DNA from: an uncultured Phycisphaerales bacterium
Lineage (GTDB): Bacteria > Planctomycetota > Phycisphaerae > Sedimentisphaerales > Anaerobacaceae
Reading direction: 5' to 3'
DNA: 64,000 nucleotides
Assembly: GCA_903857265.1 (NCBI GenBank)
Contig: CAIODZ010000022.1
Span: 124,001 to 188,000, forward strand
Below, in pieces: positions 6,301 to 31,782 of this stretch. Position 1 is the stretch's first letter. Each line of letters starts with the position of its first letter. The translations under genes were made by a program, and so were the position numbers. The notes beneath the pieces are model-generated. The model saw only the letters and a program-made list of their open reading frames with translations, made no database searches and was not told where the DNA came from.

Positions 6301-9078
6301 GGTAAAGTGGTAATTGGCATTGGGCACCGCTGTAACTGCCGTACAGTTGCCGCCGTGATTAACTACCTGAACCAAAGTCCCCGTAATACTGCCGTTAGCC
6401 CCGGCTACAAACGTTACCGTGTGGGTGTTTATCGCAAAGTTGGCCGTAACGGTGATATTGGCAGTTACGCTGGTGTCGGTCCTCGGGTTGGCTGCTGAGC
6501 CATCACTCCAGTTGACAAAGTGATAATTGGCATTAGGTACCGCCGTTACCGCTGTACCGCTACCACCATAGCTGACCGTCTGCGGGCTTGTTCCACTAAT
6601 TGTACCGTTAGCGCCCGGTGTATAAGTTAACGTGTAAGTATTTATTGCAAAATTCGCCTGGACGGCATAGTTGGCGTCCACAAGAACAGTAGTACTCACC
6701 GAAGTGGGACTTGCGACCTTGCCGGCCGTTACAGCCGTGCCTGTCCAGTTGACAAAATAATAACCAGTGTTATTCGACGCAATGATAGGATTACTGGTGC
6801 CCTGGTTATACAAATATGTGCCTATACCGGGCGTACTGACAGTACCGCCGGCTGTTGCAGAAGTCGTTAACGACCTTGTGTTAACGGCAAAGTTGGCGGT
6901 GACGGTATAGTTAGCGTCCATAAGGACGGTTGTGCTGGCCGAAGTGGGACTTGCGACCTTGCCAGCCGTGACTGCTGAGCCGGTCCAGTTTACAAAATGA
7001 TAATTCACGTCATTTGCAGCCACGATACTGGCATTGGTTCCGTTGTTATAATTAAAATTCCCAATACCTGGTGTAGTTACAGTTCCGCCCGTAGTAGTAG
7101 AAATCGCAAGGGTCCAAGTAGCAACTTGAGGTTTGAGCGCGATAGTCATATGTCCATCAACACTTGATGTTACCGTCGCTGTAGTCGAACCGGTACTTCC
7201 GGCAGTTGCTTTAAGGCCTGTTGCAATTCCTATACCTCCACCGTTGCCTGACGTGGTTCCTCCGTCTGATTGCTCTGTGAGGCCTGAGAGATTTGCGTTA
7301 GTCCAGCTTGACCATTCCGCTGAGGATGAGTCGTCGTCTCTTGATGCTGCAAGCACAATCAAGTCGTTAGCGACAGTTGTGGTGACCGTTCCGAATGTCG
7401 TAGTGGTTGAGGCCGTTCCTTTCGTTCCGCCTGCCGTCACGTCCCACGGGTTACCGGTTGTGACAGCGCCGCGGAATGCAAGAATCAGGCCAATTTGATG
7501 GTCGCCCGAGTCAGAAACGGTTGGCGCACCCTGAGTTCCATTATATCGTGACCAGTAGACCGTAAGCATTGTCGCACCTGTGCCACCAGCCGTTCCTGTT
7601 CCCTGCGGTGAATTAGCAACCGCGGTCCAGGTTCCGCCGTTCTGGTTTGAAATAGAGGAGGCCTGATTGGCCGTTTCAATAAACATCAGCAAGATGTCGT
7701 TTACAGCGATACCCGAAGGAAGCGCCGGTGAAATCGTTGATGTTCCAGATGCAGCAGTCCCTGCCGCAACAAAAGTAACGCTCGGTGGTAGTGCCGTTGC
7801 TGTATAATTCTGGGCCGTTTGATTGGATATAACGACGATGTAAGTTTTTGTTGCCGGACTAAATGTATATCCGGCTTTTATCGGGGTAACAGTTCCAATC
7901 CAGCCGGAGGTTACCGTGGCGGTGTAAAAACCGTTGGCGTCGGTAACCGGGACACCCGGCAGACCGCTCATCTGGACGCCGGCCAGAGCCGAACCGCCCG
8001 ATGTAATTGTGCCGGAAATCGTATAATTCTTAGTATTAACCAGGCCCATATTAGAGGCGGTCTGCATTATATCAGTTGTCCAGGCGTAATCGTTGCCGGT
8101 ACTTCCCTGCTGGGGGATGCCGCCATCGTTATCGCCATCGTTACCTAAAAGCGTATTGATTATATTCTGGTATTTTGTGAAAGAGTCAGCACCGCGAACT
8201 TCGCTGAGGGCATAGTGTCCCCAGGCATACCAGCCGTTGTGCCCGTTCTGGTAACCGTCGCTTGTGCCGGTATCACTGGCGGGCATATAAGTATTTGCGG
8301 TTTCAGCCCAAGCAAGAGCTTCAGCGGAGTGATTAGGGTCTTTGAAATATGAGTTCATAACGCCCCAGACGGCAACGCCAGCCGATACGGCCCAACCGTC
8401 TGAAGAGAAGTTCGATGTGCTACCATTCAACCAGGTCCGTACATTATTACCAAAAGTAAGGGCATCTGCCTGAGCTACCGTATTGGAGTCAAATAACCCA
8501 TATTGATACAGGGCACCTGCGGCAAGTCCAAGAACACAGGCCTCCCCGTTGGAGCCACTTGTGCCACAATTACCTTGATGAAGAGTGCTCGCACATCGTC
8601 TGCCATAGGCAGTATGATCAACATATCCTGCTTTGCCCAGATAGACCTGCCGGTATTTCATCTCTGCACGCATACCCCATGCGCAGTTATATGTGGTGTA
8701 ATAATTCGTGATGCTACCCCCTTCATTCCAAGCCGGGAAATTATTGAGGTAAGTCCAGGCATTGTTTATTTTTGTTTGATATGTTGTGTAGTCCCCCGTC
8801 AATTCAGCATAACGAGACCATATCCATATCGCCTCCTGCGTGTTGTCGGATTCGACGATAGTGGTCGAACCTTCATATTCTTCTATGCCGCCGAGATTCC
8901 CCCCGCTGGTTATCTGCTGTGTAACGAGCCAGGCAGCCGTTTGATTAACTTCGGCCGCATAGTCGTAGCTTACGGCAATCGCAGGCGCTGCCCCCATTGC
9001 AATTATGAGGGTGCATAAGACCATCAAGCTAATCGATGCTTTTGCTTTTGCTCCTCTGAGTGTTAATGACGATTTCAT
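3319..9078 (-). CDS. Giant secreted multidomain protein: signal peptide, alpha-toroid-like N-terminal domain, carboxypeptidase-regulatory-like domains, 13 InlB B/List-Bact repeats, C-terminal type I dockerin-like domain
   Basis: Start revised from ORF 9201 to ATG 9078, preceded by SD GGAGGA and a signal peptide MKSSLTLRGAKAKASISLMVLCTLII; 13 repeats ending in 'VTASFAID/VTANFAIN/VSFKI'; C-terminus 'DLDCDGYIDLGDVKVICDNW...GDFDASGTVDFTDFAVFGNVWGD'. Confidence 0.85.
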   Translation of the reverse strand: MKSSLTLRGAKAKASISLMVLCTLIIAMGAAPAIAVSYDYAAEVNQTAAWLVTQQITSGGNLGGIEEYEGSTTIVESDNTQEAIWIWSRYAELTGDYTTYQTKINNAWTYLNNFPAWNEGGSITNYYTTYNCAWGMRAEMKYRQVYLGKAGYVDHTAYGRRCASTLHQGNCGTSGSNGEACVLGLAAGALYQYGLFDSNTVAQADALTFGNNVRTWLNGSTSNFSSDGWAVSAGVAVWGVMNSYFKDPNHSAEALAWAETANTYMPASDTGTSDGYQNGHNGWYAWGHYALSEVRGADSFTKYQNIINTLLGNDGDNDGGIPQQGSTGNDYAWTTDIMQTASNMGLVNTKNYTISGTITSGGSALAGVQMSGLPGVPVTDANGFYTATVTSGWIGTVTPIKAGYTFSPATKTYIVVISNQTAQNYTATALPPSVTFVAAGTAASGTSTISPALPSGIAVNDILLMFIETANQASSISNQNGGTWTAVANSPQGTGTAGGTGATMLTVYWSRYNGTQGAPTVSDSGDHQIGLILAFRGAVTTGNPWDVTAGGTKGTASTTTTFGTVTTTVANDLIVLAASRDDDSSSAEWSSWTNANLSGLTEQSDGGTTSGNGGGIGIATGLKATAGSTGSTTATVTSSVDGHMTIALKPQVATWTLAISTTTGGTVTTPGIGNFNYNNGTNASIVAANDVNYHFVNWTGSAVTAGKVASPTSASTTVLMDANYTVTANFAVNTRSLTTSATAGGTVSTPGIGTYLYNQGTSNPIIASNNTGYYFVNWTGTAVTAGKVASPTSVSTTVLVDANYAVQANFAINTYTLTYTPGANGTISGTSPQTVSYGGSGTAVTAVPNANYHFVNWSDGSAANPRTDTSVTANITVTANFAINTHTVTFVAGANGSITGTLVQVVNHGGNCTAVTAVPNANYHFTSWTGGYTGATNPLTITNVTADMTVTANFAIDTHTVTFVAGANGSITGTLVQVVNHGSSCTPVTAQANTNYHFTGWTGGYTGTTNPLTITNVTADMTITANFAIDTFTLTYTPGANGTISGTSPQTVNYNASGSAVTAVPSTGYHFVKWSDDSTVNPRTDTSVTANIAVTASFAIDTFTLTYTPGSNGTITGTSPQTVNYNASGSAVTAVPATGYHFVKWSDDSTVNPRTDTSVTANIAVTASFAIDTFTLTYTAGSNGTITGTSPQTINYNTSGSAVTAVPSTGYHFVKWSDDSTVNPRTDSSVTADIAVTASFAIDTFTLTYTAGSNGTISGTSPQTVNYNASGSAVTAVPATGYHFVKWSDDSVVNPRTDSSVTANIAVTASFAIDTFTLTYTAGSNGTITGTSPQTVNYNASGSAVTAVPATGYHFVKWSDDSTVNPRTDASVTANISVTASFAIDQYTITSSAGANGSIDPMGDTTKDYGSSQLFTATPTTGYEVDKWTLDGADAQTGGNTYTLSTITATHTVAVSFKIITYTVTASAGANGSIDPTGAMTKDYGSSQLFTATPATGYAVDKWQVDGADVQTGGTTYTLSSITATHTVSVSFKIFTYTVTASTDANGSVDPMGDITKDYGSSQLFTATPTTGYVVDKWMVDGSEAQVGGTTYTLSDITTTHTVAVTFSRIIFSISGYVVEIDGNTPVKDVLMSAGDTNTLTDANGYYELSAAYGWSGVITPGKQGYVFEPGSNTYNNVTQSYNDANYTATLMTFKIAGYVLDSGNSAPISNTSVSAENGGGPWTSKYGGGSAMTDASGYYEVWVDYNWSGKVTPTKYAYAFEPNSISYENVNADTTGQNYAGTLLTFKIAGYITNKCNVPIENVLVSADNGGGQAMTDANGFYEVWVSYAWTGTVTPTKKHFTFTPGNGSYVGVLVDQAGQNYTADNIYDLDCDGYIDLGDVKVICDNWLMTGTIPGDFDASGTVDFTDFAVFGNVWGD
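4924..5988 (-). repeat. Five tandem near-identical 213-bp (71-aa) repeats inside the giant secreted protein
   Basis: The unit TFTLTYTxGSNGTxTGTSPQTVNYNASGSAVTAVPxTGYHFVKWSDDSTVNPRTDxSVTANIAVTASFAID recurs with exact 213-bp periodicity. Confidence 0.9.
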
Positions 9079-28146: not shown

Positions 28147-28860
28147 TTAATTTGCCTGCAATTTTTTTATCGACATGTCCGCCGCTTTACGAACGTCCGT
28201 GATTGAATCCTGGACCCTCGCTGTTTCAAGGGCAGGGATTGGCTTGGGATTCCTTACCTCGCCAAAAGCATTTGCCGCGGCCACACGAAGCTCGGGGTCC
28301 GTGTCTGAAAGCAGAACTTTTTCAAGGGCCAACCTGACTTTATCGTCAAAGGAATATCCGGCCAGCTCATGTATCGCCTTGATACGGTGCTCTTTGTCCC
28401 CACTCATAAGCACCTTTAAAAGCTCGTTTTTCTTTGCTCCAATGGGACCATACAACGACTCTGTATAACCACCCTGCTGCACGGGCTGAACAACCGCCGG
28501 TTGTTCCATTACGGGTACGGGCGGCGGTGCCTGCGGTACTGCCACTACCGGCGGCGGTGGAGCAACGTAATAATCCGAGGAAGTATAATACGGGTAAGAG
28601 TAATACGGGTAGGAATAATAACCCGAGTAGTAACCCGGCCAGCCCCAGTAACCATCAATGACAACCCCTGCACGATGATGCCGCCCGTACCAACCCGGCC
28701 CATAGTAACCATACCAGCCCGGATAATAACCAGGATAGTAGCCAGGACCACCCACGCCAATACCTATCGACACATTTGTGCGAGCCACAGCCGTATTTGA
28801 CAGCCAAATAAGAAGAGCCAACATTACAATCGATACTATTGCAATCTTTGCCGTTTTCAT
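28147..28860 (-). CDS. Secreted Gly/Tyr/Pro-rich protein with C-terminal HEAT repeats
   Basis: Signal peptide MKTAKIAIVSIVMLALLIWLSNTAVA; YYPGYYPGWYGYYGPGW; HEAT-like KALEKVLLSDTDPELRVAAANAFGEVRNPKPIPAL. Confidence 0.7.
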   Translation of the reverse strand: MKTAKIAIVSIVMLALLIWLSNTAVARTNVSIGIGVGGPGYYPGYYPGWYGYYGPGWYGRHHRAGVVIDGYWGWPGYYSGYYSYPYYSYPYYTSSDYYVAPPPPVVAVPQAPPPVPVMEQPAVVQPVQQGGYTESLYGPIGAKKNELLKVLMSGDKEHRIKAIHELAGYSFDDKVRLALEKVLLSDTDPELRVAAANAFGEVRNPKPIPALETARVQDSITDVRKAADMSIKKLQAN

Positions 28861-28950: not shown

Positions 28951-29034
28951 TCAATGTTCTGCGTCTGCGCCGGCGTTGTCCATATCAACGATATCCTCTT
29001 CCTCAACGGGCATAAACCACTTCTGGGCAACCAT
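28951..29034 (-). CDS. Putative 27-aa small protein MVAQKWFMPVEEEDIVDMDNAGADAEH (GTG start at 29049 also possible), downstream of fluoride riboswitch copy 1
   Basis: Shares QKWFMxVEEEDIVDxD with the ORF at 31498..31581; GGTGAG SD-like sequence about 10 nt upstream of the ATG. Confidence 0.5.
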   Translation of the reverse strand: MVAQKWFMPVEEEDIVDMDNAGADAEH

Positions 29035-29050
29035 TTTAAAGAAACTCACC

Positions 29051-29087
29051 AAAAAACAAAAAACCTCTACCAAAAATTGGTAGAGGT
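29051..29087 (-). terminator. Intrinsic terminator (expression platform) of fluoride riboswitch copy 1
   Basis: Minus strand ACCTCTACCAA-TTT-TTGGTAGAGGT followed by TTTTTTGTTTTTT; the 5' arm overlaps the aptamer 3' strand. Confidence 0.88.
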
Positions 29088-29135
29088 CATCAGCTTAATC
29101 ATTCTTTAAACGGTTCGGGCGAACCTCATCGCCTT
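29079..29135 (-). ncRNA. Fluoride riboswitch (crcB motif), copy 1
   Basis: Minus strand AAGGCGATGAGGTTCGCCCGAACCGTTTAAAGAATGATTAAGCTGATGACCTCTACC: GGCG/CGCC pseudoknot, GAGGU/ACCUC closing stem, GCTGATG core. Confidence 0.9.
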
Positions 29136-29151
29136 TCTCAATATGAGCGAT

Positions 29152-29180
29152 ATTTTATGTTTCCCCTGGTGTTTTGGCAA
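29152..29180 (-). promoter_or_regulatory. Promoter of riboswitch module copy 1
   Basis: TTGCCA-17-TAAAAT, conserved in the same position in all three module copies. Confidence 0.75.
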
Positions 29181-29298
29181 TATAATTAGGTTTGCACTTT
29201 AGAAAAATACTGTTGCCGCCCCGCCTTCGGTCGGCCATACGTCCTTCGTCACAGAATTCAACTGGCGATAAAAACTTCCTCGCCTTGAATCTATAGTC

Positions 29299-30168
29299 CT
29301 ATTTCTTTCGCTGAAAGTTAAACAGACATTCATCGCCGTTATATGTAATACCAAGATTCCAGCCCGCTTTACTTGCCCTGTCCTGCCAGATAGTTTCAAA
29401 AAGTCGAAGGTAGTCTTCAAAAGAAATCTGTGTTTTCAGATGTGCCGTCTGTTTATAAAGCTGCAAATACATCGGCTTCATTCGCACTACGGCTTCATTA
29501 CTATCAAATTTTTCCAGCGTGACTTTGTTTTCTCTCAAGTTTGCCTGTTCCCAGCATAAATACAGGATAAATGCCTTCTCAGGCGGATAAAACGGCACCC
29601 AAGTTTTTGCCGCCAGTAGGAACCCATCGCCGTCTTTGAACCAGTTGAATGCAAAATCCTTCCCTTTTTCCTTAGCAAAGAAATTGAACAGCCGCACCTG
29701 CTCGGTTGAGTAAATCTCCTCTCTCACCGCTGCCTTTTTCTCCTCCGGCAAATCAGGAAACTCCGAAGTCGGGGGCGCTGCTATTTTGTCGAGACGAATG
29801 ATTATATTTTCCAGGTGGCGAAAATACCATTTGTCATCTTCGATGAGAAATGTGTGACAGAAGGTGCTTTTCCAATCGTCCTTGGCGAACGTCACAATGT
29901 AATGCACGTGTTGGCCTACCCTGTGAACTTCCGGCGTTCCCTGGATTTGCTCCCAAAGTTTTCCTTCTTTGAACATTTTGCACCATTGCAGGAGCATATC
30001 TTTTGGCAGATTGTCGTATGTGCGAATTTTATCAGGTGTTATCTGGTCATTTTTGACGGCCTCGACGAATTCGTTCCAGATTCTGAGGTCATCCTGAGCA
30101 AGGCCGGTGTTATACGCCGACGAAATGAATATACTGACAGTTATGATAATTAGCGTTAATCTTCTCAT
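29299..30168 (-). CDS. Secreted protein of unknown function (289 aa)
   Basis: Signal peptide MRRLTLIIITVSIFISSAYNTGLA; no family recognised. Confidence 0.75.
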   Translation of the reverse strand: MRRLTLIIITVSIFISSAYNTGLAQDDLRIWNEFVEAVKNDQITPDKIRTYDNLPKDMLLQWCKMFKEGKLWEQIQGTPEVHRVGQHVHYIVTFAKDDWKSTFCHTFLIEDDKWYFRHLENIIIRLDKIAAPPTSEFPDLPEEKKAAVREEIYSTEQVRLFNFFAKEKGKDFAFNWFKDGDGFLLAAKTWVPFYPPEKAFILYLCWEQANLRENKVTLEKFDSNEAVVRMKPMYLQLYKQTAHLKTQISFEDYLRLFETIWQDRASKAGWNLGITYNGDECLFNFQRKK

Positions 30169-30330
30169 AAATGAGCCCTTTATGTTCAGCCATTTTTCTT
30201 TACAAATTTAGATGTCCTTGTCCGCCTTTTTACTGCGAATCGCAACGGAGTTACCATACCACAAAACAACCGTTACTGGTCGGCGACTGGCGCGGCACCG
30301 TGTTTAACAGCAGTTTTTCAGATACTGTCT

Positions 30331-30364
30331 AAAAACAAAAAATCTCTACCGATTCGGTAGAGGT
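30331..30364 (-). terminator. Intrinsic terminator of fluoride riboswitch copy 2
   Basis: Minus strand CTCTACCG-AAT-CGGTAGAG then ATTTTTTGTTTTT. Confidence 0.85.
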
Positions 30365-30413
30365 CATCAGCTTAATCAATTGCTAAACGGTTCAGGCGAA
30401 CCTCATCGCCTTT
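30356..30413 (-). ncRNA. Fluoride riboswitch (crcB motif), copy 2
   Basis: Minus strand AAAGGCGATGAGGTTCGCCTGAACCGTTTAGCAATTGATTAAGCTGATGACCTCTACC; all core elements intact. Confidence 0.9.
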
Positions 30414-30428
30414 ATCGACATGAACGGG

Positions 30429-30457
30429 ATTTTACGTTTTCCCTGGCGTCTTGGCAA
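30429..30457 (-). promoter_or_regulatory. Promoter of riboswitch module copy 2
   Basis: TTGCCA-17-TAAAAT. Confidence 0.75.
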
Positions 30458-30576
30458 TATAATTAGGTTTGCACTTTAGAAAAACAGCGTCGCCGCCCTA
30501 CCTTCGGTCGGCATACGCCCTTTATCACGGGATTTGACTGATAAAATTAAAAGCTCCAGGCGCAAACTTTACAATC

Positions 30577-30897
30577 TCATCGCATGGAACTTTTAAGTGT
30601 CACCATCAGGATGACCGCCAGCAAGCTCACAATGACCCCGACTATCAGTGCCGCAAGGCCGGAGCCGATTGCTGCTGCAAGGAGCGTATAAACTCCAGCA
30701 ATAATCAGCCCGACTCCCGCCAGGAGAACAAGCATACTGACTGCCAGAAAACCGCACCAGATATAAATACGCCTGAAACAGCATTCCATAGCTTTGGCCT
30801 GTTCATCGATTTTAAGCAGCAGTGATTTCGCCTGGTATTTAACAACACTCTGGAGCAGCTCTCCGGCGGTACACACAATATCCGTTAACAAGCTCAT
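30577..30897 (-). CDS. Small two-TM membrane protein, YqjE/phage-holin-superfamily-like
   Basis: Two hydrophobic stretches; directly downstream of a DUF883-like gene, as in the yqjD-yqjE gene order. Confidence 0.6.
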   Translation of the reverse strand: MSLLTDIVCTAGELLQSVVKYQAKSLLLKIDEQAKAMECCFRRIYIWCGFLAVSMLVLLAGVGLIIAGVYTLLAAAIGSGLAALIVGVIVSLLAVILMVTLKSSMR

Positions 30898-31241
30898 TAG
30901 CTCCTCCGCCCAATCAGAATGCCAACCAGTAACCCCACTCCAAGCGCTGTAAAGACAGCCGTAAGAGGCCTTTCCTCTATTTTCTTCCTGCTCAGCTCGA
31001 CGGCCTCTTTGCTGTGCTCACGCAAGCTATCATAAGCTTCTCCGAGCTTCTCTTTTGCTTCTCCTCGGAGGGCTTTAATGGCGGATTCAAGCCGTTCTTT
31101 GCTTTCTTGCAGTTTTTCTTTTCCTTGTGCCCCGGCAGCATGAAGCACATCTTTGAGGTCGTTAGCCAGTTTCGCAACGTCGCCTTTGAGCGTCTCCAGT
31201 TCGATGGCTGATTCACCTCTCTTGTTCGGTTCCATGTTCAT
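30897..31241 (-). CDS. DUF883 (YqjD/ElaB-like) membrane-anchored helical protein
   Basis: Long amphipathic helix then 'RKKIEERPLTAVFTALGVGLLVGILIGRRS'. Confidence 0.75.
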   Translation of the reverse strand: MNMEPNKRGESAIELETLKGDVAKLANDLKDVLHAAGAQGKEKLQESKERLESAIKALRGEAKEKLGEAYDSLREHSKEAVELSRKKIEERPLTAVFTALGVGLLVGILIGRRS

Positions 31242-31451
31242 AATGTTCCCCTTTCATTAAGTAATAAAGTTTTTCCGTCTCCGTTTTATAATTCCCGACT
31301 CTTCAGAGTCGCAGGAAAAAGCTAAACTATCAAAACCTTTTATTCGTAATCACTCAGCCATGCTGTAGTCGTTTCAGAAAAACGCATATACTCGCTTTAT
31401 ATTGCGATTTCTTCCTAATCTCGCGTCTCAATTCATACCAAGGTTCAGGTG

Positions 31452-31481
31452 ATTATACTATTGAACACCATCGATGTTCAA
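31452..31481 (-). promoter_or_regulatory. Promoter upstream of the DUF883 gene with a 21-bp inverted repeat
   Basis: Minus strand TTGAAC-18-TATAAT; TTGAACA-N7-TGTTCAA perfect 7-bp arms at 31461-31481 overlapping the -35. Confidence 0.6.
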
Positions 31482-31497
31482 GGGTAATTGCTATTTA

Positions 31498-31581
31498 TCA
31501 TTTTTCGATTTTTGAGTCAAAATCGACTATGTCCTCTTCCTCAACGGACATAAACCACTTTTGCCGCTTACGAATAAACAA
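31498..31581 (-). CDS. Putative 27-aa small protein (MFIRKRQKWFMSVEEEDIVDFDSKIEK from a TTG start), downstream of riboswitch copy 3
   Basis: Conserved with the ORF at 28951..29034; most differences in the aligned core are synonymous. Start codon uncertain. Confidence 0.4.
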   Translation of the reverse strand: MFIRKRQKWFMSVEEEDIVDFDSKIEK

Positions 31582-31602
31582 AAAACCTCTACCCGCAACG
31601 AA

Positions 31603-31658
31603 CAGAGGTCATCAGCTTAATCAATCGCTAAGCGGTTCAGGCGAACCGCATCGTCTTT
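31603..31658 (-). ncRNA. Degenerate fluoride riboswitch-like element, copy 3
   Basis: Minus strand AAAGACGATGCGGTTCGCCTGAACCGCTTAGCGATTGATTAAGCTGATGACCTCTG: pseudoknot strand GGCG changed to GACG and closing stem GAGGU to GCGGU; weakened terminator CCTCT...AGAGG plus T-tract. Confidence 0.65.
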
Positions 31659-31673
31659 ATCAATATGAGCGAT

Positions 31674-31702
31674 ATTTTATGTTTTACCTGACGTTTTGGC
31701 AA
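31674..31702 (-). promoter_or_regulatory. Promoter of riboswitch module copy 3
   Basis: TTGCCA-17-TAAAAT. Confidence 0.7.
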
Positions 31703-31782
31703 TATAATTCAGAACGCACATTAGAAAAACCCCGCTGCCAGAAACCGAACTATTATTATTTCGGATTCCTCCAATACCTTTA

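Follow-up and report, generated by a model that had tools for sequence, protein, structure and literature searches.

Three fluoride riboswitches in an uncultured Phycisphaerales bacterium are very probably leftover leaders of deleted CPA2-like antiporter genes

The window analysed here is a stretch of 64,000 nucleotides from the genome of an uncultured Phycisphaerales bacterium (contig CAIODZ010000022.1). Three related elements, RS1, RS2 and RS3, lie on its minus strand and match the fluoride riboswitch model RF01734 (cmscan, gathering cut-offs), as an initial annotation made from the sequence had claimed. The RS1 aptamer (29142-29074) scores 50.2 bits (E 6e-11) and that of RS2 (30419-30351) 49.7 bits (E 9e-11), both significant against the curated cut-off of 34 bits, and that of RS3 (31664-31596) is marginally over it (34.4 bits, E 9e-6). 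These are the only RF01734 matches in the 2.81 Mb genome (70 contigs). The whole elements span 29056-29180 (RS1), 30333-30457 (RS2) and 31578-31702 (RS3). Each combines a promoter, TTGCCA-17-TAAAAT (29180-29152, 30457-30429 and 31702-31674, respectively), an aptamer, which in RS3 is decayed, and a terminator (29088-29062, with its T-tract, 30362-30344 and 31610-31584), so that the promoter and terminator described earlier were found at all three copies. Taken as classes, terminators exceed shuffles (12 vs 3.5) and promoter-like sites do not (7 vs 5.8). The 5′ arm of the terminator is in each element the pseudoknot strand of the aptamer, and in RS1 and RS2 this use of the strand makes terminator and pseudoknot mutually exclusive. 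Similarity among the copies runs past the riboswitch on both flanks, and the earlier proposal that they derive from one cassette is upheld.

The riboswitch cores are not equally preserved. Compared with the riboswitch of a congener, G001, none of the 35 core positions is changed in RS1 or RS2; there are 7 and 9 changes, respectively, in the 32 variable positions, and the pseudoknot pairing GAGGU/ACCUC can be read in both sequences. RS3 is changed at 4 of the 35 core positions (GGCG to GACG in P1, GAGG to GCGG in the pseudoknot loop, and CUAC to CUGU). Neither its P1 nor its pseudoknot is intact, with an A-C mismatch in GACG/CGCC and a C-U mismatch in GCGGU/ACCUC, and its predicted fold contains a competing hairpin, GCGGUUC/GAACCGC. 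This core damage had been missed in the initial annotation. Judged from their sequences, RS1 and RS2 have probably kept the competence to sense fluoride, and RS3, which most likely represents an element that is dying out, probably terminates transcription irrespective of fluoride.

The genes now downstream are largely as first described. Below RS1 is a gene (28147-28860, minus strand) for a HEAT-repeat protein of 237 residues (PF13646, E 2e-11) with an N-terminal signal-like segment. It is absent from the congeners G001, G002 and G003; a further 15 genomes of the family hold relatives, and no fluoride riboswitch was found on any contig carrying them. Below RS2, at the place taken by an antiporter in G001, is a gene (29299-30168, minus strand) for a 289-residue protein that also has an N-terminal signal-like segment and has no Pfam match. 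Its AlphaFold model has a mean pLDDT of 55. Relatives of this protein were found only in G114 (82%, beside the exodeoxyribonuclease III gene, exoIII), recorded publicly as an uncultured planctomycete MAG, and in an Armatimonadetes MAG (49%), with no riboswitch near either; as its relatives lack a riboswitch nearby, the 289-residue protein was ruled out as a conserved fluoride gene. The third unit (30577-31241, minus strand) encodes a DUF883 protein (31241-30897; PF05957, E 4e-7) and a small membrane protein (30897-30577), both with orthologues in G001 and G002. The description of the latter as YqjE-like, which we keep as a label, finds no confirmation in Pfam, where the top hit is a sub-threshold Holin-X. 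A promoter-like site, TTGAAC-18-TATAAT (31452-31481, minus strand), lies downstream of RS3; its TATAAT and flanks are for the most part conserved in the congeners G001 and G002, in which this gene pair has no riboswitch before it. Because the pair has its own conserved promoter-like site below RS3, RS3 seems unlikely to be its natural control.

The DNA directly after RS1 and RS3 codes for the final ∼20 residues of an antiporter (AQKWFMPVEEEDIVDMDNA and QKWFMSVEEEDIVDFDSK), the remainder of each gene being gone. In remnant A (28951-29034, minus strand) ∼20 codons survive from the end of a deleted CPA2-like antiporter gene (VAQKWFMPVEEEDIVDMDNA...) and now belong to a 27-codon frame; remnant B (31498-31563, minus strand) retains the 21 final codons of an antiporter gene of a second type (QKWFMSVEEEDIVDFDSKIEK, stop). 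Past the terminators the two have the frame QKWFM-[P/S]-VEEEDIVD in common. When the G001 antiporter is searched against the window with tblastn, significant matches are confined to two places, one immediately behind RS1 (29031-28972, E 3e-8, 95% over 20 residues) and one immediately behind RS3 (31563-31510, E 1e-3); the second value alone is statistically modest, and it is position that argues for remnant B as a probable antiporter end. The DNA of remnant A is 91.5% identical to the 3′ end of the G001 antiporter gene, and that of remnant B 82.8% identical to the end of the antiporter gene in G012, from the same family. No longer antiporter piece was found on any contig, and the transmembrane exchanger domain of PF00999 is found neither at the locus nor anywhere else in the assembly. 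These C-terminal remnants, too, had been missed at first.

Codon comparisons bear on the history of the two remnants. Remnant A differs from G001 at 4 of 17 codons, all 4 synonymously and none non-synonymously, a pattern that fits a former coding end and suggests that, measured against the divergence from G001, the deletion behind RS1 is recent. If so, the intact RS1 core alone would be no sign of selection in the new setting. Remnant A belongs to the G001 type (DMDN) and remnant B resembles the G012 type (DFDSK), the two differing at 7 of 17 codons, and because of this difference in type they probably derive from two distinct antiporter genes. The RS1 junction contains ∼20 bases of filler matching neither parent end, and there are no runs of N at the junctions. 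The deletion endpoints (29062-29035 and 31584-31563) nearly coincide even though the remnants differ in type, each deletion running from shortly beyond the terminator to ∼20 codons before the stop. The 27-codon frame of remnant A begins with ATG and has GGTGAG ∼10 nt upstream, and a fluoride-induced short peptide is conceivable.

In G001 the same promoter-riboswitch unit stands at the same locus before a gene for a 384-residue antiporter (PF00999, E 4e-38), which ends in ...IAQKWFMPVEEEDIVDMDNASR and for which the nearest NCBIfam model is CPA2, with a score below the cut-off of that model. In G002 an antiporter 85% identical to it follows a fluoride riboswitch at this locus. The search of related genomes for conserved synteny, proposed earlier, shows the riboswitch at the same locus in G001, G002 and G012, where it precedes the antiporter and not the genes downstream of it in the window. 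On the minus strand the window order is tRNA, glycosyltransferase/methyltransferase genes, RS3, remnant B, DUF883, YqjE-like, RS2, 289-residue gene, RS1, remnant A, HEAT gene, GntR, SPFH and exoIII. The G001 order is tRNA, DUF883, YqjE-like, riboswitch, antiporter, GntR, SPFH and exoIII; G002 has tRNA, DUF883, YqjE-like, a dynamin-like GTPase with its own divergent riboswitch, then riboswitch, antiporter and exoIII; and G012 has tRNA, riboswitch, antiporter and exoIII. With blastn, window positions 31498-30330 are collinear with G001 across DUF883, YqjE and the riboswitch, RS2 occupying the ancestral riboswitch position behind YqjE. Positions 29246-29052 align to that same G001 riboswitch, 29030-28972 to the end of the G001 antiporter gene and 28055-25640 to GntR-SPFH-exoIII. 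G003, another member of the genus, lacks both riboswitch and antiporter at this locus and holds there a short gene pair that by eye resembles a RelE/Phd-type toxin-antitoxin system.

The tRNA-to-exoIII interval (35830-25642 in the window; L106:7245-8493) differs in every genome compared, its contents including the antiporter, the 289-residue gene, the dynamin-like GTPase, the toxin-antitoxin-like pair of G003 and, in the window, a 4-kb glycosyltransferase/methyltransferase block. Because the arrangements in G001, G002, G012, G003 and the window all differ, the interval looks like a variable locus and insertion hotspot. The DNA upstream of RS1 (29275-29200) and RS2 (30550-30470), and that past the G001 antiporter (L050:12784-12830), resembles the antisense exoIII 3′ end, with scores that beat nearly all shuffles but are modest. 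Repeated insertion at the exoIII 3′ end, leaving partial duplicates each time, would give such a pattern. The DNA that the copies share beyond the riboswitches, for which a mobile element was considered, thus holds a probable exoIII 3′-end duplicate on the upstream side and consists of the antiporter remnant on the downstream side.

The earlier observation that no Fluc/CrcB or CLC-F gene is recognisable downstream of the riboswitches extends to the whole assembly. Searches with CrcB (PF02537), CLC (PF00654) and Na_H_Exchanger (PF00999) gave no match in it, and the same searches were positive in 10, 12 and 13, respectively, of 14 control genomes. The lack of a fluoride exporter is therefore likely, in an assembly that is 94% complete and has a missing part in which exporters could sit. 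For comparison we used 46 further riboswitch loci, drawn from relatives at genus, family and order level: CrcB is present in 23, a CPA2-type antiporter in about 15 and a dynamin-like GTPase in 6. The HEAT and 289-residue genes appear in none of the 46; DUF883-YqjE is present in G001 and G002 alone, and there it stands upstream of the riboswitch. Among the classes of genes associated with fluoride riboswitches, Na+/H+ antiporters rank second in frequency (PMC11139923), which makes an ancestral riboswitch-antiporter arrangement ordinary. The dynamin-like GTPase (PF00350) lies mostly directly behind the riboswitch in its 6 loci (for example L033:5016-6875, with RF01734 at 6911-6972; also L009, L017, L019, L034 and L048). 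A search for fluoride riboswitches together with dynamin found no paper in the literature collection covered, and this GTPase may be an undescribed recurring target of the riboswitch.

The locus thus carries three riboswitches and two remnants, congeners have an intact antiporter in the same place, and no CPA2, CrcB or CLC gene is detectable in the assembly. Because the antiporter follows the cassette in congeners and the remnants sit exactly behind RS1 and RS3, we think it very probable that the three riboswitches are leftover leaders of deleted CPA2-like antiporter genes and not a purpose-built regulon. Three transcription-terminating riboswitches would once have preceded copies of a CPA2-like cation/proton antiporter gene at a variable locus between tRNA and exoIII, the antiporter genes then having been lost in this lineage. 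Behind RS1 and RS3 the deletion would have run from just past the terminator to about the last 20 codons; behind RS2 the antiporter gene would have gone completely and been replaced by the 289-residue gene. That RS2 formerly had an antiporter as its target is suggested by its position, no remnant being present there. The near-coincident endpoints with different types of remnant would call for two similar events, or for one that was spread by recombination. Without fluoride, the terminator arm CCUCUACC is expected to pair with GGUAGAGG and transcription to stop; with fluoride, the loop GAGGU would hold ACCUC in the pseudoknot and transcription would continue. Readthrough in fluoride would now pass into remnant A and the HEAT gene (RS1) or into the 289-residue gene (RS2), and DUF883-YqjE would be transcribed from its own promoter below RS3.

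The initial annotation saw in these genes a fluoride-responsive envelope regulon. We do not sustain this, as the association is missing from the 46 loci and from the surroundings of the 289-residue relatives, and in congeners the cassette precedes the antiporter. A regulon rewired after the loss, in which RS1, RS2 and perhaps RS3 persist because the cell benefits when fluoride switches on the HEAT, 289-residue and DUF883-YqjE genes, deserves consideration. RS1 and RS2 retain all 35 core positions and good terminators, neither the stretch from RS2 to the 289-residue gene nor that from RS1 to the HEAT gene showed a σ70-like site, and all units are co-directional. None of these genes is downstream of the riboswitch at any of the 46 loci, however; relatives of the 289-residue protein have no riboswitch, DUF883 has its own conserved promoter-like site, RS3 is decayed, and the deletion behind RS1 looks recent enough for intact cores to be expected even without selection. 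We regard such rewiring as unlikely, and are equally doubtful of its corollary, that a lineage which lost its fluoride-linked antiporter has two working riboswitches that captured new, probably secreted proteins (the 289-residue and HEAT proteins) in a genome with no known exporter. It is plausible, going by their cores, that RS1 and RS2 could still gate the HEAT and 289-residue genes incidentally.

The deletions might instead be artefacts, full antiporter genes really lying behind the riboswitches and having been skipped by the metagenome assembly; the 70 contigs and the suspiciously similar endpoints in two copies would suit this. Because the remnants differ at 7 of 17 codons, so that the genes were not identical repeats, and because the RS1 junction has ∼20 bases found in neither parent end, this is improbable; N runs are absent, and no other contig has an antiporter piece. 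That the leader itself yields the product, with RS1 (and RS3) controlling a short peptide made in response to fluoride (27 codons behind RS1) or else a small RNA, we consider highly improbable. The open frame of remnant A, its ATG and upstream GGTGAG, and its purely synonymous differences from G001 are compatible with a peptide, but a recent deletion accounts equally well for the synonymous pattern and the peptide is merely the antiporter C-terminal tail. Remnant B, moreover, has no sensibly placed ATG and has Ser in place of a Pro, and the riboswitch before it is decayed.

The reading of the three elements as orphaned leaders makes this a clear example of riboswitches that have survived the loss of their gene, in which promoter, aptamer and terminator stay while the gene is cut to about 20 codons. 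A search of titles and abstracts found no matching report of orphaned fluoride riboswitches or such remnants. When a leader persists after gene loss, neighbouring genes may come under fluoride control, and if the 289-residue and HEAT genes do respond to fluoride they would show how riboswitch regulons gain members. The case also advises caution in naming a new riboswitch target from one genome, as deletion may have brought the present neighbours into place by accident. The genome itself would offer a test of how bacteria cope with fluoride without Fluc, CLC-F or CPA2.

The riboswitches belong to a known class and are themselves ordinary; it is the setting of gene loss that is unusual. They resemble the RF01734 crcB-motif riboswitch with a terminator platform in their aptamer consensus, in the pseudoknot strand that forms the terminator 5′ arm and in having their own promoter. 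They depart from the typical switch in that three copies lie within 2.6 kb, none of them before an intact fluoride gene, and the third is damaged. Fluc/CrcB and CLC-F exporter operons are the usual genes behind this class, whereas neither family is detectable in the genome of the window. The riboswitch-antiporter units of G001 and G002 (same genus), G012 (family) and G099 (order) have the same C-terminal codons as the window remnants; the promoter and riboswitch type are common to the window and G001, and the locus to the window, G001, G002 and G012. In contrast to those units, the body of the antiporter gene is deleted in the window, and the HEAT and 289-residue genes fill the space.
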